A stretch of 64,000 nt of DNA, taken from the NCBI RefSeq assembly GCF_023195515.1, contig NZ_JALPKR020000002.1, positions 1,961,001-2,025,000 on the forward strand, given 5' to 3'. Position numbers and translations under genes: made by a program. This DNA is from Variovorax sp. S12S4. Lineage in GTDB: Bacteria; Pseudomonadota; Gammaproteobacteria; Burkholderiales; Burkholderiaceae_C. The notes under the pieces were generated by a model that made no database searches, was not told where the DNA came from, and was given only the letters and a program-made list of their open reading frames with translations. The first letter of the stretch is position 1; the number at the start of each line of letters is the position of its first letter. Below are positions 45,791 through 58,817 of the stretch, piece after piece.

Positions 45791-46657
45791 ATGTGCACAC
45801 GATGCGAGCTCCTTCTTCCTTCCACGGCTTCTTCAGTCTCCCGCTCCTCGGCCTGGCAGCCGCGGCGGGCCTTCCTGCTGGCCGCGGCGGGTGCGGCGTT
45901 TGGCGGGCCGGCGTTGGCGCAGGTCAACGTGGGCAACGCCTCCGTGGCGCGCAACCTGGTGCCGGCGGACCGGATCGAGGCCGCCGGCGTCCAGCAATAT
46001 GGGCAGCTGCTCGCGCAGGCGCGCACCAAGGGGGCGCTGGCGGGCGACGGCAACGCCCAGCTGCAAAGGCTGCGCACCATTGCCAACCGCCTGATTCCGT
46101 TCGCCACGCCCTGGAACACACGGGCGCGCGATTGGAAATGGGAGGTCAACCTCATCGGCAGCAAGCAGATCAACGCCTTCTGCATGCCCGGCGGCAAGAT
46201 CGCCTTCTTCACCGGCATCCTCGAGCAACTCAAGCTCAATGACGACGAGGTGGCAATGGTGATGGGCCACGAAATGGCCCATGCGCTGCGCGAGCATGCG
46301 CGTGCCCGCCTGGCCAAGAGCGCCGGCACCGGCGCTGCGCTTTCCATCGGTGCGCAGCTGCTGGGCCTGGGCCAGATGGGCGACCTGGCGGCCCGCGCCG
46401 GCACGCAGTTGATCACCCTCAAGTTCAGCCGCAGCGATGAGACCGAGGCCGACCTCGTCGGCCTGGAGCTGGCGGCGCGCGCCGGCTACGACCCGCAGGC
46501 CTCGGTGTCGCTCTGGAAGAAGATGGCCACGGCGTCGAAAAACCAGGGTGGGCTGAGTTTTCTGTCGACCCACCCGAGCGGGCCGGACCGGATCCAGAAG
46601 CTCGAAGCCAACCTGCCGAAGGTGGAAAAGCTTTACAGGGAAGCCAAGCGCAGCTGA
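45791..46657 (+). CDS. M48-family metalloprotease, exported
   Basis: The protein has 288 aa. A twin-arginine-like signal (QPRRAFLLAAAGAAFGG, cleavage near ALAQV) sends it to the periplasm. The zinc site is HEMAH in VMGHEMAHALREHAR, with the distal glutamate in DETEADLVGLELAARAGY. This is the Oma1/LoiP/YcaL-type single-domain M48 peptidase. These proteases handle damaged outer-membrane or envelope proteins. It ends with STHPSGPDRIQKLE, a typical M48 tail. It is followed by a terminator hairpin. Confidence 0.92.
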   Translation: MCTRCELLLPSTASSVSRSSAWQPRRAFLLAAAGAAFGGPALAQVNVGNASVARNLVPADRIEAAGVQQYGQLLAQARTKGALAGDGNAQLQRLRTIANRLIPFATPWNTRARDWKWEVNLIGSKQINAFCMPGGKIAFFTGILEQLKLNDDEVAMVMGHEMAHALREHARARLAKSAGTGAALSIGAQLLGLGQMGDLAARAGTQLITLKFSRSDETEADLVGLELAARAGYDPQASVSLWKKMATASKNQGGLSFLSTHPSGPDRIQKLEANLPKVEKLYREAKRS

Positions 46658-46701
46658 GGTATCGCCCTGTCCCTGGCAAAGGGCGGCTGGCGTGTATTAC
46701 T

Positions 46702-46722
46702 CCCTCTCCCTCTGGGAGAGGG
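46702..46722 (+). terminator. Hairpin terminator-like element
   Basis: A perfect 9-bp stem CCCTCTCCC/GGGAGAGGG with a TCT loop lies 45 bp after the M48 protease stop. No T-run follows, so it may be a Rho-assisted or RNA-stabilising hairpin. A short GGGG-CAAAA-CCCC hairpin comes directly after it. Confidence 0.55.
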
Positions 46723-46769
46723 GCAAAACCCCTGAACAAAATCTGCTGAAGAGCGACTTCCGATCGCTC

Positions 46770-46785
46770 TGGCACATTGCTTGCA
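46770..46785 (+). promoter_or_regulatory. Sigma-54 (RpoN) promoter of the atzF operon
   Basis: TGGCACATTGCTTGCA matches the -24/-12 consensus TGGCACG-N4-TTGCW at every position but the variable seventh. The predicted start of transcription is near 46796, leaving a leader of about 23 nt before the atzF ATG at 46819. Sigma-54 control fits use of a poor nitrogen source under NtrC-type activation. A similar element is found at 51600. Confidence 0.8.
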
Positions 46786-46791
46786 TCTCAT

Positions 46792-46803
46792 CTTGTACAC
46801 AAG
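46792..46803. promoter_or_regulatory. Palindrome over predicted start site, candidate GntR operator
   Basis: CTTGTACACAAG has 5-bp arms around a 2-bp centre and begins 8 bp after the -12 element, covering the predicted transcription start. A related palindrome has identical placement at 51622. The shape (TTGT-N2-ACAA) is in the style of FCD-type GntR operators. The GntR gene at 58044 is the natural candidate to bind it. Confidence 0.6.
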
Positions 46804-46818
46804 TTTGGATGCTTTGAA

Positions 46819-48528
46819 ATGGTGCATGAAGAAAACGGATCGGCCGCAGCGGCGTGGATCGCGCGCTTCCCTCGGCCCGTACCCGGCGCGGCCCCAGGTA
46901 ACAGCCCGCTCGCCGGCCTGCGCTTCGCAGTCAAGGACAACATCGACGTGGCCGGCGTGCCCACCACGGCCGCCTGTCCGGCCTTCGACCGCAAGCCCAC
47001 CGCGCACGCGGCCGTGGTGCAGAAGCTGCTCGATGCCGGTGCATCGCTGCTCGGCAAGACCAATCTCGACCAGTTCGCCTGCGGCCTGAACGGCACGCGC
47101 TCTCCTTATGGCGAAGTGCCCAATGCCTTCGACGCGCGTTACGTCTCGGGCGGCTCCAGCTCGGGCTCGGCCTATGTGGTGGCCGCGGGCGAGGTCGATT
47201 TCGCGCTCGGCACCGACACGGCCGGCTCGGGCCGCGTGCCCGCCGGGCTCAACAACATCGTCGGCATCAAGCCCTCGCGCGGCCTGCTGAGTGCCTTCGG
47301 CGTGGTGCCCGCGGCGCAGAGCGCGGACTGCGTGTCGATCTTTGCGCGCACCGTGGCGCTGGCCGTCGATGTGCTTCTGGCGGCCACCGGGCCCGACGCG
47401 CGCGACCCTTATTCGCGGGAACTTGCACTGCGCAGCGACCCGTTTCCGCCGGCTTTCCGTTTCGGCGTACCCGACACGCTGAGCTTCTTCGGCGATGCAG
47501 AAGCCGAAAAGGCCTTCCGCGACGCACAGGCGCGGCTCGTCGCGCTTGGCGGCATGCCTGTGACGATTCCCTTCGCCCCGCTCGCCGAGGCCGCCGCGCT
47601 GCTCTATGAAAGCGCATTGGTGGCCGAGCGCTATGCCGCCGTGCGCGAGTTCTTCGATGCGCACGGCTCCCAGGTGATCGAACCGGTGCGCGGCATTCTC
47701 GAGAGCGGCCGCGGCTACAGCGCCGCCGATGTGTTCGAGGCGCAGACAAGACTGCGCGCACTCGCACAACAGGCCGAACCCATGTGGCGCGGCATCGACG
47801 TGCTGCTGGTGCCGACCGCGCCCACGCACTACACGCGCGACCAGATGCGCGCCGACCCGGTCGTGCTCAACCGCAACCTTGGCGCGTACACCAACTTCGT
47901 CAACCTGCTGGACTACGCCGCCATCTCGGTGCCGAGTTCGTTGCGCGCCGATGGCCTGCCGTTCGGCGTCACGCTGATCGGGCCGTGCGGCAGCGACCTT
48001 GCGCTGGCCGACCTGGGCCAGCGCTACCACCACGCCACAGGGCTGCCGCAGGGCGCCACCGGCTTGCCGCTGCCCGAGGCGCGCGCCATTCCGGGCTTGG
48101 GCGTTTCGCAAGCGCAGACCATGCCCATCGCCGTCGTCGGCGCGCACCTTTCGGGCATGCCGCTGAACAGCCAGCTCACCGAGCGCGGCGCCACGCTGCT
48201 GCGTGCCACGACCACCGCGCCGCGCTACCGGCTTCATGCATTGCCGGGCACCGTGCCGCCCAAGCCGGGGCTGCAGCGCAGCGCAGGCGGCGGCAGCGCC
48301 ATCGCGCTCGAAGTGTGGTCGGTTCCGGTTGCGCAGGTCGGCAGCTTCCTGGCCCTGATCCCGCCTCCGCTGGGGCTCGGCAGCGTGGAGCTTGCCGACG
48401 GCAGTTGGGTGCACGGCTTCATCTGCGAAGGCCACGCGCTGGCCGACGCCGAAGACGTGAGCCACCACGGCGGCTGGCGTGCCTACATCGCGAGCCGCAC
48501 CGTTTCTTCCCAAGCCATTCCAACCTGA
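46819..48528 (+). CDS. atzF: Allophanate hydrolase
   Basis: The protein has 569 aa from MVHEENGSAAAAW. It is an amidase-signature enzyme that splits allophanate into two ammonia and two CO2. The Ser-cisSer-Lys triad is visible: K39 (RFAVKDNIDVAG), the serine cluster 113-115 (VSGGSSSGSA) and S137 (GTDTAGSGRVP). A C-terminal domain of ~120 aa (from about PIAVVGAHLSGMPLN) is characteristic of AtzF and urea-amidolyase DUR2-type proteins and absent from plain amidases. It heads a unit with an ABC importer and an AtzH-like gene, under a sigma-54 promoter. Allophanate would come from biuret via the hydrolase at 54798. Confidence 0.92.
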   Translation: MVHEENGSAAAAWIARFPRPVPGAAPGNSPLAGLRFAVKDNIDVAGVPTTAACPAFDRKPTAHAAVVQKLLDAGASLLGKTNLDQFACGLNGTRSPYGEVPNAFDARYVSGGSSSGSAYVVAAGEVDFALGTDTAGSGRVPAGLNNIVGIKPSRGLLSAFGVVPAAQSADCVSIFARTVALAVDVLLAATGPDARDPYSRELALRSDPFPPAFRFGVPDTLSFFGDAEAEKAFRDAQARLVALGGMPVTIPFAPLAEAAALLYESALVAERYAAVREFFDAHGSQVIEPVRGILESGRGYSAADVFEAQTRLRALAQQAEPMWRGIDVLLVPTAPTHYTRDQMRADPVVLNRNLGAYTNFVNLLDYAAISVPSSLRADGLPFGVTLIGPCGSDLALADLGQRYHHATGLPQGATGLPLPEARAIPGLGVSQAQTMPIAVVGAHLSGMPLNSQLTERGATLLRATTTAPRYRLHALPGTVPPKPGLQRSAGGGSAIALEVWSVPVAQVGSFLALIPPPLGLGSVELADGSWVHGFICEGHALADAEDVSHHGGWRAYIASRTVSSQAIPT

Positions 48529-48545
48529 CCGATCGAGGAGTCTTC

Positions 48546-49550
48546 ATGAGCATCCCTGAAAAATTGCCCGCCGCCGCGTCCCGCCGCCATGTGCTGCAGG
48601 CCGGTGCAGCGGGGCTGGCCGTACTTGCCGCACCCGCCATCGTGCGCGCGCAAGCCGCACCGAAGATCCGCATCGGCTTCTGGCCCGTGGCCGCGGGCCT
48701 GCCCTTCTTTGCCGCGGTGGACCGCGGCTATTTCAAGGAAGCGGGCCTCGACGTGGAGCCGCTCAAGTTCGCGGGTGCGCAGCAGGTCATGGAAGGCATG
48801 CTGGCGGGCCGCTGCGACGGCAGCTCCAACGGCACGGGCTCGGCCAATCTCGCCATCGGTGAGATCGCGCAGCCGGGGCTCTTCAAGATCTTCTGCACCA
48901 ACCCGAGCAACGCCAAGTTCGTGCTCGACGAATTCATCGTCGCCAAGGACAGCCCGATCAAGACCATGGCCGAGCTCGCCGGCAAGAAGATCGCGTCCGG
49001 CCCCGGCATCCAGAACGTGACCCTGTGCAAGACCATGCTCGAACGCGCTGGCGCCAAGGGTGCCACGGTGAGCGAGCTTCCCATCGGCCAGCACGTGGCC
49101 GCGCTCGTCGCGGGGCAGGTCGACGCCTGCTACACGCTGGAGCCGACCGGCACCGTCGGCCGCATGAACGGCACCACGCGCGTCATCGAGGCCGGCGTGG
49201 TCGCCAAGTACATCCTGGGTGATCCGATGGCGCCGTGGCATGGCGGCGCCGCCAGCCTCACCAGCGAGTTCATCAAGAAGAACCCCGAAGTGGCCAGGAA
49301 GTACATCGCCGCCTATGCGCGCGGCGTCGAGCTGGTGCGCACCAAGCCCGACGATGCCCGCCAGCACATGAAGGGCTACACCGCCATCGAGGGCAAGCTC
49401 ACGGCCGAAGTGCCGCTCGCCTCCTACATGCTCTACAACGAGTTCAAGCCCAGCGACGTGGCGTACTTCCAGAAGTTCTACGACCTGTTCACCGAAAAAG
49501 GCATCTTCGAGAAGAAGGTGCTGGTGGACGGCCTGCTCTACAAGGCATGA
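48546..49550 (+). CDS. ABC transporter substrate-binding protein (NMT1/SsuA/ThiY type)
   Basis: The protein has 334 aa with a twin-arginine-like signal (SRRHVLQAGAAGLAVLA, cleavage near VRAQA). The mature N-terminus KIRIGFWPVAAGLPFFAAVDRGYFKEAGLDV is typical of nitrate/taurine/pyrimidine-type binding proteins. It supplies the permease and ATPase encoded next, with its stop overlapping the permease ATG. The ligand is probably a small nitrogen compound such as a ureide or a pyrimidine/triazine derivative, judged only from the operon. It starts 17 bp after atzF. Confidence 0.88.
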   Translation: MSIPEKLPAAASRRHVLQAGAAGLAVLAAPAIVRAQAAPKIRIGFWPVAAGLPFFAAVDRGYFKEAGLDVEPLKFAGAQQVMEGMLAGRCDGSSNGTGSANLAIGEIAQPGLFKIFCTNPSNAKFVLDEFIVAKDSPIKTMAELAGKKIASGPGIQNVTLCKTMLERAGAKGATVSELPIGQHVAALVAGQVDACYTLEPTGTVGRMNGTTRVIEAGVVAKYILGDPMAPWHGGAASLTSEFIKKNPEVARKYIAAYARGVELVRTKPDDARQHMKGYTAIEGKLTAEVPLASYMLYNEFKPSDVAYFQKFYDLFTEKGIFEKKVLVDGLLYKA

Positions 49551-50386
49551 CCATGGCCGAAGCAAGCACGACCACGGCCGCGCCGTGGACGCCGCCGGCC
49601 ACCGGCGCCACGGCAGCGGCCCTGCCCAAGCCGCCACTGCGCGACCGGCTGCTGCCCTTCATCGGACCCGTGGTGCTGTTCATCGTGTGGGACCTGGCGG
49701 TGCGGCTCGGTTTCATCAAGCCGATCCTGCTGCCCACGCCCGCGGACACCGTTGCGGCGCTGATCACCGGGCTCGCGGGCGGGCCGCTGCTCACCGACTT
49801 TGCGATGACCGTGTGGCGCACGCTGCAGGCCTTTCTGATTGCGGCGGTGGTCGGCGTGCCGCTGGGCGTGCTGCTCGGCAGCAACGAGAAGGCTTACCGC
49901 AGCGTCGAATTCCTGATCGACTTCTTCCGCTCCACACCTTCGTCCGCGCTGATTCCGTTGTTCCTGCTGATCTTCGGCGTGTCCGACGTCAACAAGGTGG
50001 CCATCGCAGCTTTCGGCGCGCTGCTGATCGTCGTGTTCAACAGCGCCTACGGCGTCATCAATGCGCGCAAGCAGCGCGTGATGGCGGCACGCGTCATGGG
50101 CGCCTCGCGCTGGCAGATCTTCAAGGACGTGCTGGTGTGGGAAAGCCTGCAGCCCAGCTTCGTGGGCCTGCGCTCAGCGGTGTCGATGGCCTTGGTGATC
50201 GTCATCGTGGCCGAGATGTTCATCGGCTCCGACACCGGCCTTGGCCACCGCATCATCGATGCGCAGCAGGTGCTCAACGTGAAGAGCATGTATGCGGCCA
50301 TTCTTGCCGCCGGTGCGCTGGGCTATGCGCTCAACATTCTTTTTCTTGTGGCCGAGCGCCGCATCGTGCACTGGAGCGGTCGATGA
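49547..50386 (+). CDS. ABC transporter permease (SsuC/TauC type)
   Basis: The protein has 279 aa, six hydrophobic segments, with the coupling-loop motif AARVMGASRWQIFKDVLVWESLQP (EAA-like). A polar Ala/Thr/Pro-rich stretch precedes the first helix. The ATG overlaps the binding-protein stop; an in-frame ATG two codons later is equally possible. It forms the membrane channel of the importer with the next gene's ATPase, whose start again overlaps. Confidence 0.9.
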   Translation: MTMAEASTTTAAPWTPPATGATAAALPKPPLRDRLLPFIGPVVLFIVWDLAVRLGFIKPILLPTPADTVAALITGLAGGPLLTDFAMTVWRTLQAFLIAAVVGVPLGVLLGSNEKAYRSVEFLIDFFRSTPSSALIPLFLLIFGVSDVNKVAIAAFGALLIVVFNSAYGVINARKQRVMAARVMGASRWQIFKDVLVWESLQPSFVGLRSAVSMALVIVIVAEMFIGSDTGLGHRIIDAQQVLNVKSMYAAILAAGALGYALNILFLVAERRIVHWSGR

Positions 50387-51216
50387 AAGTGACACCCGAC
50401 ATCGTCGTCAACGGCCCGGTGTATGCCGACGTGCCAAAGCCCGTGTTCAAGCCGGGCCCGGCCGGCACGCACATCACCATTCGCGGCCTGACCAAGTACT
50501 TTGCGGGCTGGCCCCTGTACGAGAACTTCGACCTCGACATACCCAAGCACAAGATTGTCTCGGTGTTCGGCCCGAACGGCTGCGGCAAGTCCACGCTCAT
50601 CAACATGATCGCCGGGCTCATTCCCATCGATGCGGGCGAAATCCTGTTCGACGGCAAGCAGCGCAAGGACACCAAGATCGGCTACGTGTTCCAGAACTAC
50701 CGCGAGGCGATGTTCCCGTGGATGCGCACCATCGACAACATCGCCTATCCGCTGAAGCTCGAAGGGCGCAGCAAGGCCGAGGTCGACCGGCGCATGGAAG
50801 AGCTGGTGGCGTCGTTCGACGTCAAGTTCGACCTGAAGCGCTTTCCGTACGAACTCTCCGGCGGCCAGCAGCAGACCGCGTCGATCATGCGGGCGCTCGC
50901 GCCCAACCCTGAGGTGCTGTTTCTCGACGAGCCGTTTTCCGCGCTCGACTTCGAGATGACGCTCTTCATCCGCGAGAAGCTGCAGGAGGTGTTCATTCAG
51001 ACCGGCACCACCATGCTGCTGGTATCGCACGACCTCGAAGAGGCCGTGTACCTGGCCGACGAGGTGCTGCTCTTGACAAAGCGGCCCACCAAGGTGGCCG
51101 AGATCCTGCGGTACGGCGATGCACGGCCGCGCACGGTCGAGACGCTGAGCACCGAGAGCTTTGTCGCAATGAAGAAGCTCAGCCTCGACATCTTTCAACG
51201 CGAGGTTCGCAGATGA
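50383..51216 (+). CDS. ABC transporter ATP-binding protein (SsuB/TauB type)
   Basis: The protein has 277 aa. Walker A is GPNGCGKST, the signature LSGGQQQ, Walker [13 protein letters not shown] and the switch histidine in [11 protein letters not shown] ~30-residue extension precedes the core. It powers the importer encoded with the two genes upstream. Overlaps (ATGA) at both ends bind it to the permease and to the AtzH-like gene. Confidence 0.93.
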
Positions 51217-51593
51217 CCCTGGAAATCAATATCCCCGAAGTGCTTGCCGAAGTGACCGAAGTGTTCGCGCGGTATGAAGAAGCACTGCTCACCAACCGCC
51301 GTGATGTGCTCGACGAGCTGTTCTGGAACAGCCCGCACACGCTGCGCTACGGCTACGCCGAGAACCACTACGGTCATGCGGCCATCAGCGCCTTTCGCGC
51401 ATCGCTGCCGGTGCAGAGCCCGCCGCGCGAGCTGCTGCGCACCGTCATCACCACCTACGGCCGCGACCTTGCGACCGCCAATGCCGAGTTCCGCCGCGAA
51501 GGCAGCGGCCAGACCGGCCGCCAGAGCCAGACCTGGCTGCGCACCGCCGATGGCTGGCGCGTGGCCGCCGCGCACGTGAGCCTCATCGGCTGA
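51213..51593 (+). CDS. AtzH/HpxZ-like NTF2-fold protein
   Basis: The protein has 126 aa. The pattern [21 protein letters not shown], then [22 protein letters not shown] and a final [18 protein letters not shown] is that of the DUF3225 proteins. These include HpxZ of oxalurate catabolism and AtzH, which helps cyanurate/biuret breakdown in Pseudomonas sp. ADP by removing dicarboxyurea-type side products. The gene is the last of the atzF unit (ATGA overlap) and lies just before the second sigma-54 promoter. No atzE or atzG genes are nearby. The fold assignment is good; the exact reaction is inferred. Confidence 0.82.
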
Positions 51594-51599
51594 ACACGC

Positions 51600-51615
51600 A
51601 GGCACATTTTTTGCA
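51600..51615 (+). promoter_or_regulatory. Sigma-54 (RpoN) promoter of the second biuret unit
   Basis: AGGCACATTTTTTGCA matches the -24/-12 consensus with GG and GC at the required spacing; only the first base differs from TGGCAC. The predicted start lies near 51626. It begins 7 bp after the AtzH-like gene stop and 32 bp before the next ATG. It closely resembles the element at 46770. Confidence 0.75.
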
Positions 51616-51621
51616 CCCTAC

Positions 51622-51633
51622 CTTGTATCCAAG
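51622..51633. promoter_or_regulatory. Palindrome over predicted start site, second candidate GntR operator
   Basis: CTTGTATCCAAG, an imperfect palindrome related to the one at 46792, starts at the same distance (8 bp) after the -12 element and covers the predicted transcription start. Conservation of sequence and spacing at two promoters of one locus supports a shared regulator. Confidence 0.6.
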
Positions 51634-51646
51634 ACCGGAGAACGCC

Positions 51647-52765
51647 ATGACCAGCCCCTTGAATCGCCGCGAGTCCCTCAAATCCCTGGCCGCGCTCGGC
51701 GCCGCCGGCACCCTTGGAGGCTGGAGCGCCCTTGCCGGCGCACAGGCCAAGCCGCTGACCGTCGGCGTGATCTACGTCGGCGCGCGCGACGACTACGGCT
51801 ACAACCAGGCGCACGCCATGGCCGCGGCCGAGGTCAAGAAGCTGCCTGGAGTGAAGGTGGTCGAAGAAGAGAACGTGCCCGAGACCGCCGCCGTGCAGAA
51901 GACCATGGCCGGCATGATCTCGCAAGACGGCGCCAAGCTGCTGTTTCCCACGTCGTTCGGCTACTTCGATCCGCACATCCTTGCCGTGGCGCCCAAGAAC
52001 CCCGACGTGCGCTTCTCGCACTGCGGCGGTCTCTGGACCGAGGGCAAGCACCCGAAGAACGCGGGCAGCTTCTTCGGCTACATCGACGAGTGCCAGTTCC
52101 TGAACGGCGTGATCGCCGCGCACATGACCAAGAGCAACAAGATCGCCTTCGTCGCCGCCAAGCCCATTCCGCAGGTGCTGCGCAACATCAACGCCTTTAC
52201 GCTCGGCGCGCGCTCGGTCAAGCCGAACATCACCTGCAGCGTGATCTTCACGGGCGACTGGTCCATGGCGGTGAAGGAAGCTGAGGCCACCAATAGCCTG
52301 GCCGACCAGGGCTGCGACGTGTTCACCATGCACGTCGACGGCCCCAAGGTGGTGGTCGAGACGGCCGCCAAGCGCGGCAAGATGGTTTGCGGCTACCACG
52401 CGAGCCAGGCCAAGCTCGCGCCCAATGCGTACCTCACCGGTGCCGAGTGGAACTGGCTCACGGCCTACAAGGCGGCCATCGAGGCCGCGCAAGCCGGCAA
52501 GCCGCACCCCAACTTTTTGCGCGGCGGCCTGAAGGAAGGCTACGTGAAGATGTCGGCCTACGGCCCCATGGTGCCGGACGCCGCGAAGAAGCAGGCCGAC
52601 GACATCAAGGCCAGGATGATTGCCGGCACCTTCGACATCTTCAAGGACGGCATCAAGGACAACAAGGGCGCCGTCGTGGTGCCGGCCGGCAAGGTGCTGA
52701 AGCAGACCGACCTGGAGCTGGAAAAGATGAATTACCTGGTCGAAGGCGTCATCGGCTCGGCCTGA
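51647..52765 (+). CDS. BMP-family ABC transporter substrate-binding protein
   Basis: The protein has 372 aa with a twin-arginine-like signal (RRESLKSLAALGAAG, cleavage near AGAQA). LTVGVIYVGARDDYGYNQAH and the later GYHASQAKLAPNAYLTGAEWNW match the BmpA/PnrA family of purine-nucleoside binding proteins and their relatives for ureides and nucleobases. There is no lipobox, so it is a free periplasmic protein. It heads the second biuret unit with two permeases and a double ATPase. The ligand is probably biuret or a related ureide; that is inference from context. Confidence 0.88.
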   Translation: MTSPLNRRESLKSLAALGAAGTLGGWSALAGAQAKPLTVGVIYVGARDDYGYNQAHAMAAAEVKKLPGVKVVEEENVPETAAVQKTMAGMISQDGAKLLFPTSFGYFDPHILAVAPKNPDVRFSHCGGLWTEGKHPKNAGSFFGYIDECQFLNGVIAAHMTKSNKIAFVAAKPIPQVLRNINAFTLGARSVKPNITCSVIFTGDWSMAVKEAEATNSLADQGCDVFTMHVDGPKVVVETAAKRGKMVCGYHASQAKLAPNAYLTGAEWNWLTAYKAAIEAAQAGKPHPNFLRGGLKEGYVKMSAYGPMVPDAAKKQADDIKARMIAGTFDIFKDGIKDNKGAVVVPAGKVLKQTDLELEKMNYLVEGVIGSA

Positions 52766-52783
52766 TCCGGGTTCATCCTCACC

Positions 52784-53872
52784 ATGCGCCACGCGCTCAA
52801 GGAATTCGCCCTGCCGGTGTTCGCCATTGCGGCGGCGCTGCTGTTGTTCGGCGTGCTGGTGGCCTTTGCCGGGGTCGATCCGGTGGAGGTCTGGGCGACG
52901 CTGTTCAAGGGCGCGTTCGGCGACTGGTTCTCGTGGCAGAACACCTTGCAGCGCGCCGCGCCGCTGATGCTCACGGCCCTGTGCGTGGCTCTGCCGGCGC
53001 GGGCGGGGCTCATCGTCATCGGCGGGGAGGGCGCGCTGGTGCTGGGCGGTCTGGCCTCGGCCGCGCTCGCGCATGCGCTGCCGCTTCCCGGCAACGTGCT
53101 GGGCACGGTGGTGGTCTGCCTCGCCGGCGCGGTGGCCGGTGCGCTGTGGATCGCCCTTGCGGGCTGGCTGCGCCAGTACCGCGGCATCAACGAAACCATC
53201 AGCAGCCTGCTGCTGGCCTACATCGCGATCGGCATCTTCAAGCACCTGGTCGAAGGGCCGCTGCGTGATCCGGCGAGCCTCAACAAGCCGTCGACCTATG
53301 CGCTCGATGCCGCCTTGCTGATCGGCGGCATCGGCGGCTCCGACGTGCACTGGGGCTTCATGATCGGCGTGGTCGCCTGTCTTGGGCTCGCGTGGTGGCT
53401 GCGCGCCACCGCCTCGGGTTTTTCGGTGCGCGTGGTGGGCGGCAATCCGCGCACCGCGCAGCTTGTGGGCCTGCCGGCCACGCGGCTCATTCTCGGCGCC
53501 TGCGGGCTCGGCGGCGCCTGCGCGGGGCTCGCGGGTGCGGTCGAGGTGGCGGCGGTGCACACCAACGCCAACGCCTCGCTGATCGCGGGCTACGGTTATG
53601 CGGGCATCCTCGTGTCGTTCATTGCGCGGCACAACCCGGTGGCCATCGTGCCGGTTGCCATTCTCTTCGGCGGCTTCGGTGCGGCCGGCAGCCTGCTGCA
53701 GCGCCGTCTCGGGCTGCCCGATGCGTCGGTGCTGGTGCTGCAGGGCATTGCGTTCGTGCTCATTCTCGCGAGCGAGGGGCTGCGCATGGTCGACTGGAAG
53801 GCGTTGATGAGCCGAAGGGCCGCGCCCAAGGCGAATGCTGGTGCAGCACGTGCCGCGGAGGCGGCCCAATGA
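52784..53872 (+). CDS. ABC transporter permease (BMP/nucleoside type), first
   Basis: The protein has 362 aa with eight to ten hydrophobic segments. PLMLTALCVALPARAGLIVIGGEGALVLGG and YRGINETISSLLLAYIAIG are the usual marks of YufP/BmpC-type permeases of the branched-chain permease superfamily. It pairs with the next permease, whose start overlaps its stop. Cytoplasmic-membrane location. Confidence 0.9.
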   Translation: MRHALKEFALPVFAIAAALLLFGVLVAFAGVDPVEVWATLFKGAFGDWFSWQNTLQRAAPLMLTALCVALPARAGLIVIGGEGALVLGGLASAALAHALPLPGNVLGTVVVCLAGAVAGALWIALAGWLRQYRGINETISSLLLAYIAIGIFKHLVEGPLRDPASLNKPSTYALDAALLIGGIGGSDVHWGFMIGVVACLGLAWWLRATASGFSVRVVGGNPRTAQLVGLPATRLILGACGLGGACAGLAGAVEVAAVHTNANASLIAGYGYAGILVSFIARHNPVAIVPVAILFGGFGAAGSLLQRRLGLPDASVLVLQGIAFVLILASEGLRMVDWKALMSRRAAPKANAGAARAAEAAQ

Positions 53873-54792
53873 CCGCGGACCAGTGGATCGCCCTCGTGGC
53901 CGGCATCGTCGGCGGCGCCTTGCGCGTCGGCGCGCCATTTCTGTTCGTGAGCCTGGGCGAATGCCTCACCGAAAAATCGGGCCGCATCAACCTCGGGCTC
54001 GAAGGCGTGCTGGTGCTCTCGGCCATGGCGGCCTTCGGCGGCGCGTATCTCACCGATTCGGCATGGCTCGGCGTGCTCATCGGCGCGGTGGCGGGCGCGC
54101 TGCTCGCGCTGCTGCACGGCCTGCTGTGTTCGCTCGATCGCGTCAATGACGTGGCGACCGGCATCGCACTCATGCTGCTCGGCACCGGCCTGGCGTTTTA
54201 CCTGGGCAAGCCGCTCATCCAGCCGCAGGCGCCGCAGATTCCCGCGATACCCCTCGGCTTCTGGAGCGACAACCCGGTGGTGAGCTCCGCCTTGCAGCTG
54301 AACGCGCTGGTGCCCGTGGGCGTGGTGCTGGCCGTGCTGCTCTGGTGGGGCTTTGCGCGGACACGCGCCGGCTTGCTGGTGCGCATGGCTGGCGATTCGG
54401 CGCAGGCCACACGGGCGCTCGGCTATTCGGTGTCCGGCCTGCGCATTGCAGCGACCACAGCGGGCGGCTTCATCGCGGGGCTCGGCGGCGCATCGCTCAC
54501 GCTGTTCTATCCGGGCAGTTGGAACGAAGGAATCTCGAGCGGCCAGGGCCTCATTGCCGTCGCGCTCGTGATCTTCGCGCGCTGGAGCCCGCTGCGCTGC
54601 GTGGGTGCTGCGTTTCTCTTCGGCGGGGCGGGGGCTATCGGTCCCGCGCTGCAGTCCATCGGCATCGGCTGGGGCTATCACTTGTTCAACACCGTGCCCT
54701 ACGTGCTCACGCTGGTCATTCTTGTGCTCACCTGCAGGCCCGGCAGCACGGCACTCGGCAGCCCCGGCGAACTTTCATCGACAAGGAACTGA
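53869..54792 (+). CDS. ABC transporter permease (BMP/nucleoside type), second
   Basis: The protein has 307 aa. [29 protein letters not shown] near the N-terminus and [18 protein letters not shown] are characteristic of the YufQ/BmpD-type partner permease. Eight or so hydrophobic segments. ATGA overlap with the first permease, 5 bp before the biuret hydrolase gene. It forms the heterodimeric channel of the importer. Confidence 0.9.
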
Positions 54793-54797
54793 ACGCC

Positions 54798-55499
54798 ATG
54801 ACAACAACAACTGGCCGCCACGTAGAGGCCGAGCCCTATGCCTGGCCCTACAACGGCGCGCTGCGGCCCGACAACACCGCGCTGATCGTGATCGACATGC
54901 AGACCGACTTCTGCGGCAAGGGCGGCTACGTCGACGTGATGGGTTACGACCTCTCGCTGGTGCAGGCACCGATCCAGCCGATCGCGCGCGCGCTCGCGGC
55001 GCTGCGGCCGCTGGGCTTTCACGTCATTCACACGCGCGAAGGCCACCGGCCCGACCTGGCGGACCTGCCCGCCAACAAGCGCTGGCGTTCGCGCCAGATT
55101 GGCGCTGGCGGCGTGGGCATTGGCGACGACGGGCCGTGCGGACGCATCCTGGTGCGCGGCGAGCCGGGATGGGAGATCATTCCCGAACTGGCACCGCTCG
55201 CCGATGAGGCTGTGATCGACAAGCCCGGCAAGGGCTCGTTCTACGCCACCGATCTCGAGCTGATCTTGCGCACGCGCGGCATCGAGAACCTCATCCTCGC
55301 GGGCATCACCACCGACGTGTGCGTGCACACCACCATGCGCGATGCCAACGACCGCGGCTTCGAATGCCTGCTGCTGTCCGATTGCACCGCTGCCACCGAC
55401 CACGGCAACCACCTGGCGGCGCTGAAGATGATCACGATGCAGGGTGGCGTGTTCGGCGCCCACGCCACCTCGCAGGCGCTGCTGGCCGCGCTGGACTGA
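54798..55499 (+). CDS. biuH: Biuret amidohydrolase-like cysteine hydrolase (isochorismatase fold)
   Basis: The protein has 233 aa. It hydrolyses biuret to allophanate and ammonia, the step before AtzF. The Asp-Lys-Cys triad is D37 (VIDMQTDF), K142 (DKPGKGSF) and C175 (TTDVCVHT), with K145 and Q215 also in place. These positions coincide, as far as I recall them, with the residues described for BiuH of Rhizobium leguminosarum. The gene sits within the transporter unit between permease and ATPase genes. Other members of the fold (ureidoacrylate hydrolase, nicotinamidase) are less likely given the allophanate hydrolase next door. Confidence 0.85.
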
Positions 55500-55510
55500 C
55501 GAACGAACGC

Positions 55511-57106
55511 ATGGCCGACACGTTCCACGCCATCGGCGCACTGCCTGCGGGCAGCGGCGCCCTCGCGCTCGACACCTACGAATTGACCAAGCGCTTCGGC
55601 GCCTTCACCGCGATGGAGCGCGTGACGATGCGCGTCGAGCCTGGCACGGTGCATGCGCTGCTCGGCGAGAACGGCGCGGGCAAGAGCACGCTGGTGAAAT
55701 GCGTCGCGGGCTTCCAGCGCGCGGAAGAAGGCAGCATCCTGATCGACGGCCGCGAGCAGGACATTGCCAACCCCATCGTGGCGCGCGCGCTCGGCATCGG
55801 CATGGTGTACCAGCACTTCACGCTCGCGCCGGGCATGACCGTGGCCGAGAACCTGCTGCTCGCAGGCGGCAAGACGCCGGCACTGATCGACTGGAAGGCG
55901 AAGCGGGCCGAACTCAAGGCCTTTCTGGCGACCACGCCCTTCAGCCTCGACCTCGATGTGCGGCCATCAGAGCTTGCGGCGGGCGAAAAGCAGAAGCTCG
56001 AACTGCTGAAGCAGCTCTACCTGAAGCCGCGCCTGCTGATCCTCGACGAACCGACCTCGGTGCTCACGCCGCAGGAGGCCGACGAGGTGCTCGGCCACGT
56101 GCGCGAATTCGCGCGAAGCGGCTTGTGCACCGTGCTCATCATCACGCACAAGTTTCGCGAAGTGATGGCCTATGCCGACAGTGTGACGGTGCTGCGCCGC
56201 GGCAAGGCGGTGCACCACTGCCGCGTGGCGGACACGAGCCCTGCGCAATTGGCACAGGCCATGATGGGCGGCCAGGCTGCGATGTCGTCCGCGCCGGCTG
56301 CATTGCCTGCTGCCAGAAAGACCGTGCCCGAGGCGGCGCCCGTCGCATTGAGGGTCGAAGGCCTCAAGGCGCAGGGTGACCGTGGCACGCTGGCACTGCA
56401 CGATCTGAGCCTTTCCGTGCGCGCGGGCGAAATCCTCGGCGTGGCGGGCGTCTCGGGCAACGGGCAGCGCGAGCTGGTCGAGGCCCTGGTCGGGCAGCGC
56501 CCGCGGCTGGCCGGCCGCGTGACGGTCATGGGCCAGCCCTACAGCGCACGCCGGAGCGAGAACCGCAGTCTCAAGGTGCGCAGCCTGCCCGAGGAGCCGC
56601 TGCGCAACGCTTGCGTGGGCGACCTCAGCGTGGCGGAGAACATGGCACTGCGCGATTTCGACCGGCCGCCTTTGTCGCGCGGCGGCGTGTTGAACTTTCC
56701 CTTCTGGCGCAATCGGGCGCGCGATTGGATTGCCGAATACGGCGTCAAAACGCAAGGCGAGGGTGCGCCGATTCGCAGCCTCTCCGGCGGCAACGTGCAG
56801 CGCGCGGTGCTGGCGCGCGAACTCGCGGGCGACATCAATGTGCTGATCGCGGCCAATCCCGTGTTCGGCCTCGACTTCGCTGCGGTTGCCGAGATCCACG
56901 AACGCATCGTGCAGGTGCGCGAGAAGGGCGGGGCGGTGCTGCTCATCAGCGAAGACCTCGACGAACTGCTGGAGTTGGCCGACCGCATCGTCGTGATGAG
57001 CGAGGGTCAGATCGTGTTCGAGACTTCAGCGGCGGGCGCCGAACGGCATGTGATCGGGGCACACATGGGTGGCGGGCATCATGAACCTTTGAAGGCTGTG
57101 GCATGA
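55511..57106 (+). CDS. ABC transporter ATP-binding protein with two ATPase domains (BMP type)
   Basis: The protein has 531 aa. The first domain has Walker [10 protein letters not shown], signature ELAAGEKQ, Walker [13 protein letters not shown] and the TH switch (IITHKFREV). The second (from about residue 280) has a degenerate Walker [11 protein letters not shown], signature LSGGNVQRA and Walker B-like [12 protein letters not shown], as is usual for the non-hydrolysing half in the RbsA/YufO family. It drives the BMP importer encoded upstream. A long palindromic element follows before the next gene. Confidence 0.92.
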
Positions 57107-57128
57107 GTGCCCTGCTTTCCGTGGGGAG

Positions 57129-57311
57129 GCCGCCCGGTGTGCGGTGCGGCACGGTCGACCCCACTATGCCGGCCGCTTCGCGGCTCCCCTGCGGTGCTCG
57201 CGTTTCGCGGGGTCTCGCAGAACTCGCTTCGCTCAAACAGCTGCGAGCCCTGATCCGCGAAACGCTGCGCTCCTCGGGGCACAGAGGGGCCGCCCGCCCC
57301 GCACCGCAAAC
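57129..57311. repeat. Long imperfect palindrome inside the biuret operon
   Basis: This non-coding stretch fills most of the 269-bp gap between the ATPase gene and the second hydrolase. Nested complementary arms are visible: GCGTTTCGCGG (57200-57210) with CCGCGAAACGC (57255-57265), CTCGCAG (57214-57220) with CTGCGAG (57241-57247), and an outer pair near 57138-57149 and 57299-57311. The loop is CTCGCTTCGCTCAAACAG-like. It differs in sequence from the 28/18425 element. An open frame crosses it but has no protein-like features. It may be a mobile extragenic palindrome or an RNA-processing site. Confidence 0.65.
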
Positions 57312-57375
57312 CGGGCTTCGAGGTGGGGTGTTTGCCCCTGGTGCGCTCGAGCCCTCTGAACAAGCGAGCAACAAC

Positions 57376-58047
57376 ATGCGCATAGAAGAAGCCATTCCCT
57401 TCCCCTACGAGTTCGAGATAAAAAACACTGCGCTGGTCCTCATCGACATGCAGCGCGACTTCATCGAACCTGGCGGCTTCGGCGAAACGCTGGGCAACGA
57501 TGTTTCGTTGTTGGAAGCGATCGTTCCTGCCACGAAGGTAGCGCTGTGGGCCTGGAGAGAAGCCGGCGGCCTCGTGGTGCACACCCGGGAGGCGCACAAG
57601 CCTGACCTCTCCGATTGCCCGCCTGCCAAACGCAACCGCGGCAACCCGGCATTGCGCATCGGCGACGAAGGCCCGATGGGCCGCATCCTTGTGGCGGGCG
57701 AACCGGGCAACCAGATCATCGACGCGCTGGCTCCGATCGAAGGCGAAATCGTCATCGACAAGCCCGGCAAGGGCGCGTTCTACGCTACCGGCCTGCATGA
57801 ATTGCTGCAAGCGCGCGGCATCACGCACCTGCTGTTCGGCGGGGTGACCACAGAAGTGTGCGTGCAGACCAGCATGCGCGAAGCCAACGACCGTGGCTAC
57901 GACTGCCTTCTGCTCGAGGATTGCACCGAGAGCTACTTTCCGGCCTTCAAGGCGGCCACGCTCGACATGGTTCGCGCCCAGGGCGGCATCATCGGCTGGA
58001 CGGCATCGAGCGCGGCGCTGCTGGCTGTGCTTCGCGGTGGGCAATGA
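57376..58047 (+). CDS. Second isochorismatase-fold cysteine hydrolase, candidate triuret or biuret hydrolase
   Basis: The protein has 223 aa, started at [14 protein letters not shown]; longer in-frame starts would run through the palindrome. The triad is complete: D28 (LIDMQRDF), the Lys in [11 protein letters not shown] and the Cys in [10 protein letters not shown]. It is clearly a paralogue of the biuret hydrolase at 54798, sharing the DKPGKG-FYAT and MR-ANDRG segments. Triuret-degrading organisms pair a triuret hydrolase (TrtA) with BiuH, so this is a candidate for that role; a second ureide amidase is the alternative. Its stop overlaps the GntR gene start. Confidence 0.75.
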
Positions 58048-58817
58048 CAGCGACTAATATTCCCCACGTGTCTACTGTTCGTTCCCGCCCCGCCTCGCCC
58101 GTATCCGCCGTCCCCGCCGCCGGCGAAGCCGTTTTTCGCACCCGCGCGGACGAGGTGTACGCGCAGCTCAAGCGCGACGTGGCCGATTTCATCCTCGTGC
58201 CGGGCGACCGCTTTACCGAGAACGAGATCAGCGAGCGGCTCGGCGTCTCGCGCACGCCCGTGCGGCAGGCGCTGTTCCGCCTGCAGCAGGAAGGGTTCGT
58301 CGAGGTGCTGTTTCGCAGCGGCTGGCGCGTGCTGCCGTTCGACTTCGACCAGTTCGAGCAGCTTTACGACCTGCGCATGGTGCTGGAGACCACCGCCGTG
58401 CATCGCCTGTGCGAAGCCGACCGCCGCGTCGACCGGAGCCTGCTCGACGCGCTGGCCGACATCTGGCTCGTGCCGGTCGCCCAGCGCAGCAGCGACACCG
58501 CGCAGGTGGCGCAATGGGACGAGGCTTTTCACTGTGCGCTGGTGGCTGCCGCGGGCAACGCCGAGATGGCGCGCGTCCACGGTGACGTGACCGACCGCAT
58601 CCGCATCATTCGCCGCCTCGACTTCACGCAGCAGCCACGCATCGATGCCACCTATGACGAGCACGGCAAGATCCTGAAGGCCGTGCGCGCCAACCGCGGC
58701 GATCAGGCCGCAATGCTGCTGCGCGCGCACATCGAGACCAGCCAGGCGGAAGTGCGCAAGATCACGCTGCACCAGGTGCACCTGGCGCGGCACGCTGGAA
58801 AGACGGCACCGCGCTGA
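58044..58817 (+). CDS. GntR-family (FCD) transcriptional regulator
   Basis: The protein has 257 aa. The winged helix at about residues 55-85 ([24 protein letters not shown]) is followed by the FCD ligand domain with its metal-site pattern (acid and histidines: [14 protein letters not shown], later [10 protein letters not shown] and LLRAHIETS). Its ATG overlaps the preceding hydrolase stop, so it belongs to the biuret unit. It is the obvious candidate repressor for the two palindromes at 46792 and 51622. The inducer could be biuret, allophanate or another intermediate. Confidence 0.92.

Follow-up and report, generated by a model that had tools for sequence, protein, structure and literature searches.

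A conserved, probably dual-input promoter module at two ureide operons of Variovorax, with sigma-54 elements and a candidate GntR operator over the predicted start site

Two promoter modules at a triuret, biuret and allophanate locus

We analyzed a 64,000-nucleotide stretch of the genome of Variovorax sp. S12S4 (contig NZ_JALPKR020000002.1, positions 1,961,001 to 2,025,000; the window). All 12 genes at 46819-58817 in the window are on the plus strand, and their spacing suggests two transcription units. Operon A would comprise atzF, a NitT-type ATP-binding cassette (ABC) transporter and an AtzH/HpxZ-like gene, and operon B a BMP-family ABC transporter, biuH, a trtA-like gene and gntR (Table 1). 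Judged by sequence, TrtA, BiuH and AtzF encoded together are the triuret/biuret pathway set, and the two operons appear to break down triuret, biuret and allophanate. Each operon is preceded by a module in which a sigma-54-type promoter is followed by a palindrome. We think it likely that both are sigma-54 promoters whose start is covered by the operator of the GntR/FCD repressor encoded in operon B. We conclude that this is a real, conserved dual-input promoter module, with a familiar logic in a new setting.

Module A (46771-46803) reads GGCAC-ATTGC-TTGCA-TCTCAT-CTTGTACACAAG, and module B (51601-51633) reads GGCAC-ATTTT-TTGCA-CCCTAC-CTTGTATCCAAG. The initial annotation had aligned them over 33 bp without gaps, with about three quarters of the bases equal, and 25 of 33 positions are indeed identical. 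It had given the promoter as GGCAC-N6-TTGCA; the GG-N10-GC core is right, but the gap is 5 bases, not 6. At both modules GG and GC stand 10 bases apart inside TGGCAC/TTGC-like boxes, as in sigma-54 promoters. The operators CTTGTACACAAG and CTTGTATCCAAG are imperfect palindromes, and each starts exactly 8 bases past the -12 C, as first described. The predicted leaders are about 20 bases long (46796 to 46819 for A, 51626 to 51647 for B). We considered a hairpin in the leader RNA and rejected it by inference, because transcription is predicted to begin within the palindrome, so that the RNA would contain only a portion of it.

Table 1. Features of the two operons and their promoters in the window
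Feature	Position	Strand	Basis
Sigma-54 core, promoter A (-24/-12), TGGCAC-N5-TTGCA	46770..46785	+	sequence, GG-N10-GC; conserved upstream of atzF
Operator A, CTTGTACACAAG, predicted -4 to +8	46792..46803	+	sequence; register +8 from -12 C
Predicted transcription start A, 12 bases after -12 C	46796	+	inferred from sigma-54 geometry
atzF, allophanate hydrolase	46819..48528	+	TIGR02713 742 bits, cut-off 511; PF01425, PF21986
NitT/SsuA-type ABC substrate-binding protein	48546..49550	+	PF09084
ABC permease (NitT-type transporter)	49547..50386	+	PF00528
ABC ATPase (NitT-type transporter)	50383..51216	+	PF00005
AtzH-like / HpxZ protein	51213..51593	+	PF11533; NF033625 190 bits, cut-off 135
Sigma-54 core, promoter B, AGGCAC-N5-TTGCA	51600..51615	+	sequence; conservation
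Operator B, CTTGTATCCAAG, predicted -4 to +8	51622..51633	+	sequence; register +8
Predicted transcription start B	51626	+	inferred from sigma-54 geometry
BMP-family ABC substrate-binding protein (bmp)	51647..52765	+	PF02608
ABC permease 1, BMP transporter	52784..53872	+	PF02653; conserved order
ABC permease 2, BMP transporter	53869..54792	+	PF02653; conserved order
biuH, biuret hydrolase	54798..55499	+	NF050097 415.5 bits, cut-off 370; best solved relative 6AZO (BiuH structure)
BMP transporter ATPase, two ABC domains	55511..57106	+	PF00005, 2 stretches
trtA-like triuret hydrolase	57376..58047	+	best solved relatives 6XIX, 6XJ4; 262 bits, below BiuH cut-off 370
GntR regulator with FCD domain (FadR-type), proposed binder of both operators	58044..58817	+	PF00392 62.1 bits, PF07729 69.6 bits, both over cut-off

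The trtA-like product is the second isochorismatase-like hydrolase of operon B, and it is assigned by its nearest solved relatives, which are Herbaspirillum TrtA structures according to the TrtA paper. Among the best 80 of 194 relatives, the top matches of the GntR protein in the named collection are mostly from Variovorax.

Conservation and register of core and palindrome

The similarity of the two modules is not in itself remarkable. The window holds 333 pairs of 33-base segments that agree at exactly 25 of 33 positions and 175 more that agree at more than 25 (overlapping shifts counted apart), and we rejected raw similarity as an argument. Likewise, sigma-54 cores taken by themselves are about as frequent in the window as chance predicts, with 2 matches at no more than 1 mismatch and 3.1 expected. 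It is the combined, structured pattern that exceeds chance. The exact string GGCACN5TTGCAN6CTTGTANNCAAG occurs twice in the 5.97-Mb genome, at modules A and B, and its reversed control does not occur.

At no more than 1 mismatch, the palindrome CTTGTATACAAG has only one further place in the genome besides A and B. This third palindrome, CTTGCATACAAG (L141:2252, G000:C2:455251), lies 54 bases before an open reading frame for a dicarboxylate symporter (PF00375), which is followed by an open reading frame for a second GntR protein with an FCD domain; there is no GG-N10-GC core at the palindrome. We considered it as a further target of the ureide-cluster GntR and rejected this. Because the symporter and the other regulator adjoin it and the sigma-54 core is absent, it is more likely the site of that neighboring regulator, and CTTGCATACAAG and the second gene probably form a GntR-operator pair of their own.

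That the modules are real is settled by their conservation in related genomes. As the initial annotation had proposed, we searched for the module across Variovorax, and 79 of 100 genomes of the genus match at no more than 2 mismatches (none with the reversed control). A GntR orthologue (E <=1e-40) is present in 82. Both occur in 78 genomes, neither in 17, the module only in 1 and GntR only in 4 (Fisher p 1.5e-14, a value that ignores relatedness and operon linkage). The sole genome with the module only, G049, is 88% complete in 720 contigs, and one with GntR only, G068, is 58% complete. In a second, G003 (locus L021), the stretch between -12 and the operator upstream of atzF is apparently lost and the GC of -12 is gone; the apparent cause is a small natural deletion between two copies of CTTG, which fused the -12 region with the operator. 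In G099 (L022) the palindromes are degraded at both promoters; G009 (L023) has a degraded palindrome before bmp, and its contig does not include the atzF side.

The association extends beyond the genus. A GntR homologue at E 1e-50 is found in 89 of 299 genomes of the family, and we took 80 loci (L021-L100), all chosen for GntR: 20 from within the genus, and 60 of the 89 match places listed beyond it. In these loci (1.54 Mb) we searched for the exact palindrome CTTGN4CAAG only, with no sigma-54 site assumed. Of 84 exact sites, 68 lie within 300 bp upstream of atzF or bmp. A GG-N10-GC core with its -12 C exactly 8 bases before the palindrome accompanies 60 of these 68, and a core at some offset from 0 to 12 accompanies 65; the background is 0.0040 per position.

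A second pass covered the window and 120 loci picked for GntR or biuH, with the core scored and the palindrome allowed up to 2 mismatches at offsets 0-19. With duplicates excluded (L136 repeats L108), it yielded 109 promoters, of 96 distinct sequences, from the window and 80 of the loci. In each, a CTTGTATACAAG-like palindrome stands at the core or shortly downstream of it. All 109 have a T before the -12 GC and the spacer is variable, the GG and GC being fixed by construction. Such a palindrome accompanies only 2 of 1051 other sigma-54-like sites. A promoter of this kind was found in 67 of the 80 loci chosen for GntR. In the promoter alignment (15 of 45 sequences: 14 from the genus, including the window, and 1 from another genus), the boxes are conserved and conservation ends upstream at -24.

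Offset 8 from the -12 C, the register of the window, is found in 84 of the 109 promoters, and the other 25 have offsets of 0, 3, 5, 6, 7, 10, 11, 12, 14, 16, 17 or 19. On the GntR tree (101 promoters), the offset classes cluster, with 21 changes versus 40.7 in shuffles and none of 200 shuffles as low, a result to which near-copies among the promoters contribute. The four promoters with offset 0 all fall in one starred GntR clade of 7, and eight of the nine with offsets 10-12 fall in another of 12. These registers (0 and 10 to 12) thus occur in separate GntR clades, and we therefore view promoter and operator as separate elements that can shift relative to each other, with the operator staying at or just downstream of -12. 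In L112 and L119, the operator upstream of atzF, CTTGTATTCAAG, has offset 16 and lies inside a longer dyad with TTCAA..TTGAA flanks.

Sigma-54 polymerase waits in a stable closed complex, and the registers found across genera offer a ready set of natural variants with which to ask which of its steps a repressor can block. We speculate, tentatively, that the operator of one GntR lineage may have moved stepwise (touching -12; at the start; +10 to +12; +14 to +19), so that repression would work either through competition with sigma-54 or through a clamp on the start region of the bound closed complex, combined with an activator without a dedicated enhancer, the repressor giving specificity.

Repressor, activator and inducer

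The palindrome follows the GntR gene among genomes that share the pathway. biuH at E 1e-70 is present in 31 of 300 order-level genomes, and we took the 27 outside the family together with two family genomes without a GntR match. Eight of these 29 have no GntR match at E 1e-30, two of the eight being cut by contig ends. In the other six (89-99% complete), no palindrome was found in the 20-kb biuH stretches. The four of these six with a readable bmp promoter (L103, L104, L115 and L120) keep the core, with scores of 5, 5, 6 and 7 of 7. Three of these four share a genus with the GntR-bearing L101 and L107, in which the palindrome is present at +8.

In contrast to the genomes without detected GntR, the palindrome lies beside the core in 12 of the 15 order-level stretches that have GntR (at 2 mismatches in L131 and L137); these stretches come from 14 genomes, two of them from G628. 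For 12 of 15 versus 0 of 6, in groupings made after the data were seen, p is 0.0015; it is 0.014 with L138-L140 as misses and 0.024 if no more than 1 mismatch is also required. An alternative count, likewise chosen after the data were seen and based on a GntR of at least 47% anywhere in a biuH genome, gives 9 of 15 biuH clusters versus 0 of 6 (p 0.019; the cut G544 excluded). Stretches left out of the main count were L102, L105, L117 and L127 (biuH clusters with GntR elsewhere in the genome), L106 and L133 (cut by contig ends), L121-L124 (a different GntR, 32-36%), L126, L128, and L138-L140 (whose distant GntR homologues lie outside atz clusters). The GntR of L116 is on a separate contig, but we still counted L116 as GntR-positive, since gene order is the same on that contig as in the sister genome G628. 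Among the clusters with a different, divergent GntR, L122 and L124 have GTTG..CAAG or GTTG..CAAC variants, also at +8; no such variant was seen in L121 and L123.

The palindrome thus tracks the GntR gene, as is characteristic of the palindromic site of an FCD-type GntR repressor system. Co-occurrence, the absence of the palindrome near biuH without GntR, and the clustering of registers on the GntR tree support binding of the palindrome by GntR. The arrangement originally proposed, a GntR operator over the start site of a sigma-54 promoter, is strongly supported by comparative genomics, and binding by this particular GntR is a prediction from sequence.

We propose that RNA polymerase with RpoN would occupy -24/-12 and that ATP-dependent melting would be driven by an enhancer-binding protein that is active when nitrogen is scarce, NtrC being the likeliest. 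GntR bound at about -4 to +8 would keep the start region double-stranded or block polymerase until a ureide metabolite releases it, whereupon operons A and B would come on together. Since gntR is in operon B, GntR would limit its own synthesis. With a GntR operator overlaid on a sigma-54 promoter, the operons would be expressed only under nitrogen shortage and in the presence of the appropriate compound.

Several observations weigh against this reading. Thirteen of the 80 loci chosen for GntR gave no scored promoter. These include the short contig L069, the deletion in L021 and the degraded palindromes of L022 and L023; L076 and L077 have an exact palindrome and no scored core, and the other seven have more distant homologues (48-62% in the best stretch). 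In L021, L026 and L040 no promoter B was found before bmp, and in L022, L023 and L036 the core upstream of bmp is kept with the operator degraded or lost despite the presence of GntR. Three GntR-positive order-level stretches (L111, L114 and L134) have no palindrome. Offset classes 14-19 and 0-7 are only weakly clustered when taken alone (33 and 8 of 500 shuffles as low). No sigma-70-like site was found in 46600-51700, and since only 0.3 would be expected by chance, this carries little weight. The remaining difficulties concern the activator. NtrC-like dyads are not enriched: they occur in 18 of 92 promoters at no more than 1 mismatch, versus 22% of 362 coding controls. A cruder shuffle control had suggested enrichment (11 of 65 versus 2.6), a signal that the coding-region control removed. 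The best dyads in the window have 3 and 2 mismatches. Nor is any sequence conserved upstream of -24 in the 15 aligned promoters. The search for enhancers covered the NtrC-type dyad only, and such sites may lie far away or not be needed. On biuret, an ntrC mutant of Burkholderia cenocepacia grew better rather than worse (PMC5491218).

Could the two modules be a coincidence or a shared repeat without regulatory meaning? A similarity of 25/33 is indeed common in the window, but the full pattern is unique to A and B, and conservation in the genus and across genera, the cores found by anchoring on the palindrome and the survey of 109 promoters speak against it, so that we give this explanation almost no credence. 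It is also unlikely, though less so, that the sigma-54 promoters are real but the palindrome serves another regulator, whose gene lies elsewhere. G049 carries the module without a detected GntR gene, and L117 has a palindrome with 2 mismatches at +6 in a cluster without a local GntR, the GntR being on another contig of that genome. However, the palindrome is absent from the biuH stretches of the genomes without detected GntR, the register classes cluster on the GntR tree, and the only other such palindrome of the genome precedes a symporter gene and then another GntR gene with FCD. We find it quite improbable that GntR acts mainly as an activator, or helps or bends polymerase, rather than as a repressor. 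GntR proteins are generally known to be capable of activation, but a site over the predicted start at offset 8 (84/109), or touching the -12 box at offset 0 (4/109), is in a position for occlusion or for blocking melting.

A further alternative keeps sigma-54 and repression by GntR but invokes an enhancer-binding protein other than NtrC, with a second input other than nitrogen starvation. This is a variant of our preferred explanation, compatible with its GntR part, and we regard it as an unlikely but serious possibility. In its favor are the lack of an NtrC-like enhancer, the growth of the B. cenocepacia mutant, and several weaker NtrC-family matches in the genome. The genome also encodes RpoN (2 copies) and an NtrC that scores above the curated cut-off. 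NtrC activates PatzR of Pseudomonas ADP with no site upstream. Against the alternative, ammonia is a product of the pathway, the comparable atz operons of Pseudomonas ADP depend on sigma-54 and respond to nitrogen starvation by induction (PMC6834077), and predicted NtrC regulons in Rhizobiales include atzF (PMC5343134). In B. cenocepacia, 95% of the NtrC-affected genes counted are also sigma-54 regulated (PMC5491218). The initial suggestion of nitrogen starvation acting through NtrC is thus plausible only: RpoN and NtrC are encoded, but no NtrC-like enhancer is enriched or conserved.

The inducer is probably a shared intermediate below biuret, because many genomes with this GntR have no biuH. 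Among 73 GntR stretches of at least 19 kb, atzF is found in 71, atzH in 67, an AtzE-like amidase (an AtzF match below 48% identity) in 60, trtA in 62 and biuH in 53. Eleven of the 20 long stretches without biuH also have no trtA, in counts that can miss genes further off. At the level of whole family genomes, 18 of 89 with GntR have no biuH match at E 1e-70, and 71 of 73 biuH genomes have GntR.

Relation to known systems

HutC carries a UTRA domain, unlike the GntR protein of operon B, in which UTRA has no match at E 1e-5 and FCD is matched instead. The initial annotation called the combination of a GntR operator with a sigma-54 promoter rarely documented. This is fair, but the combination is not unprecedented: at hutU, the region protected by HutC, a GntR repressor of Pseudomonas, overlaps the sigma-54 site, and HutC also interacts with NtrC control (PMC12977541, PMC8871633). 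As proposed here, a GntR footprint over a sigma-54 site there combines substrate and nutrient-state control (CbrB/NtrC). The HutC operator is TGTA-N2-TACA, whereas the consensus here, CTTGTATACAAG, has no such 2-base gap, and operators CTTGTACACAAG and CTTGTATCCAAG are not of the HutC type. The modules also differ from the HutC system in the register kept over the start and in that no NtrC site was seen upstream. FadR-type (FCD) GntR regulators share with ours the Pfam domains GntR and FCD and a short palindromic operator; they are usually described at sigma-70 promoters.

The enzymes of the window are known from trtA-biuH-atzF clusters of Herbaspirillum, Rhizobium and ammonia oxidizers (PMC7948467, PMC12625717), and a synteny figure legend places a gntR gene beside such clusters (PMC12625717). 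The available parts of these two papers make no mention of sigma-54 promoters or operators for the clusters, and the main text of PMC7948467 does not contain "GntR". A literature search that included the string TTGTATACAAG returned no report of the module and no described regulatory site for the triuret/biuret/allophanate pathway; subscription papers were thinly covered, and the thesis of Tassoulas (2019), which touches on triuret regulation, was outside its scope. GntR and sigma-54 dual-input logic is known, and the regulator type, the pathway and the start-site register are undescribed in the literature searched. Triuret is an impurity of urea fertilizer (PMC7948467). Our analysis provides a concrete candidate regulator and operator for its degradation pathway and that of biuret and allophanate.

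AtzR is a LysR-type regulator, and a Pfam scan of all 12 genes at 46819-58817 found neither a LysR-type regulator nor atzD. The atz system of Pseudomonas sp. ADP thus differs from the locus described here, which has a GntR/FCD regulator, and biuret and triuret hydrolases in place of atzD. The two have in common atzF, atzH and a second operon with an ABC transporter and, by our proposal, sigma-54 promoters with nitrogen starvation and a pathway compound as inputs (PMC6834077). An AtzE-like gene is also common to Pseudomonas sp. ADP and many loci related to the window. Operon A of the window itself (46819-51593) is without one, and 60 of the 73 long GntR stretches have one. Within operon B, the interval 57107-57375 between the BMP transporter ATPase gene and trtA has 11 further partial matches in the same genome, at 81-94% identity. 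It is a dispersed repeat inside the gene row and may affect expression of trtA and gntR.

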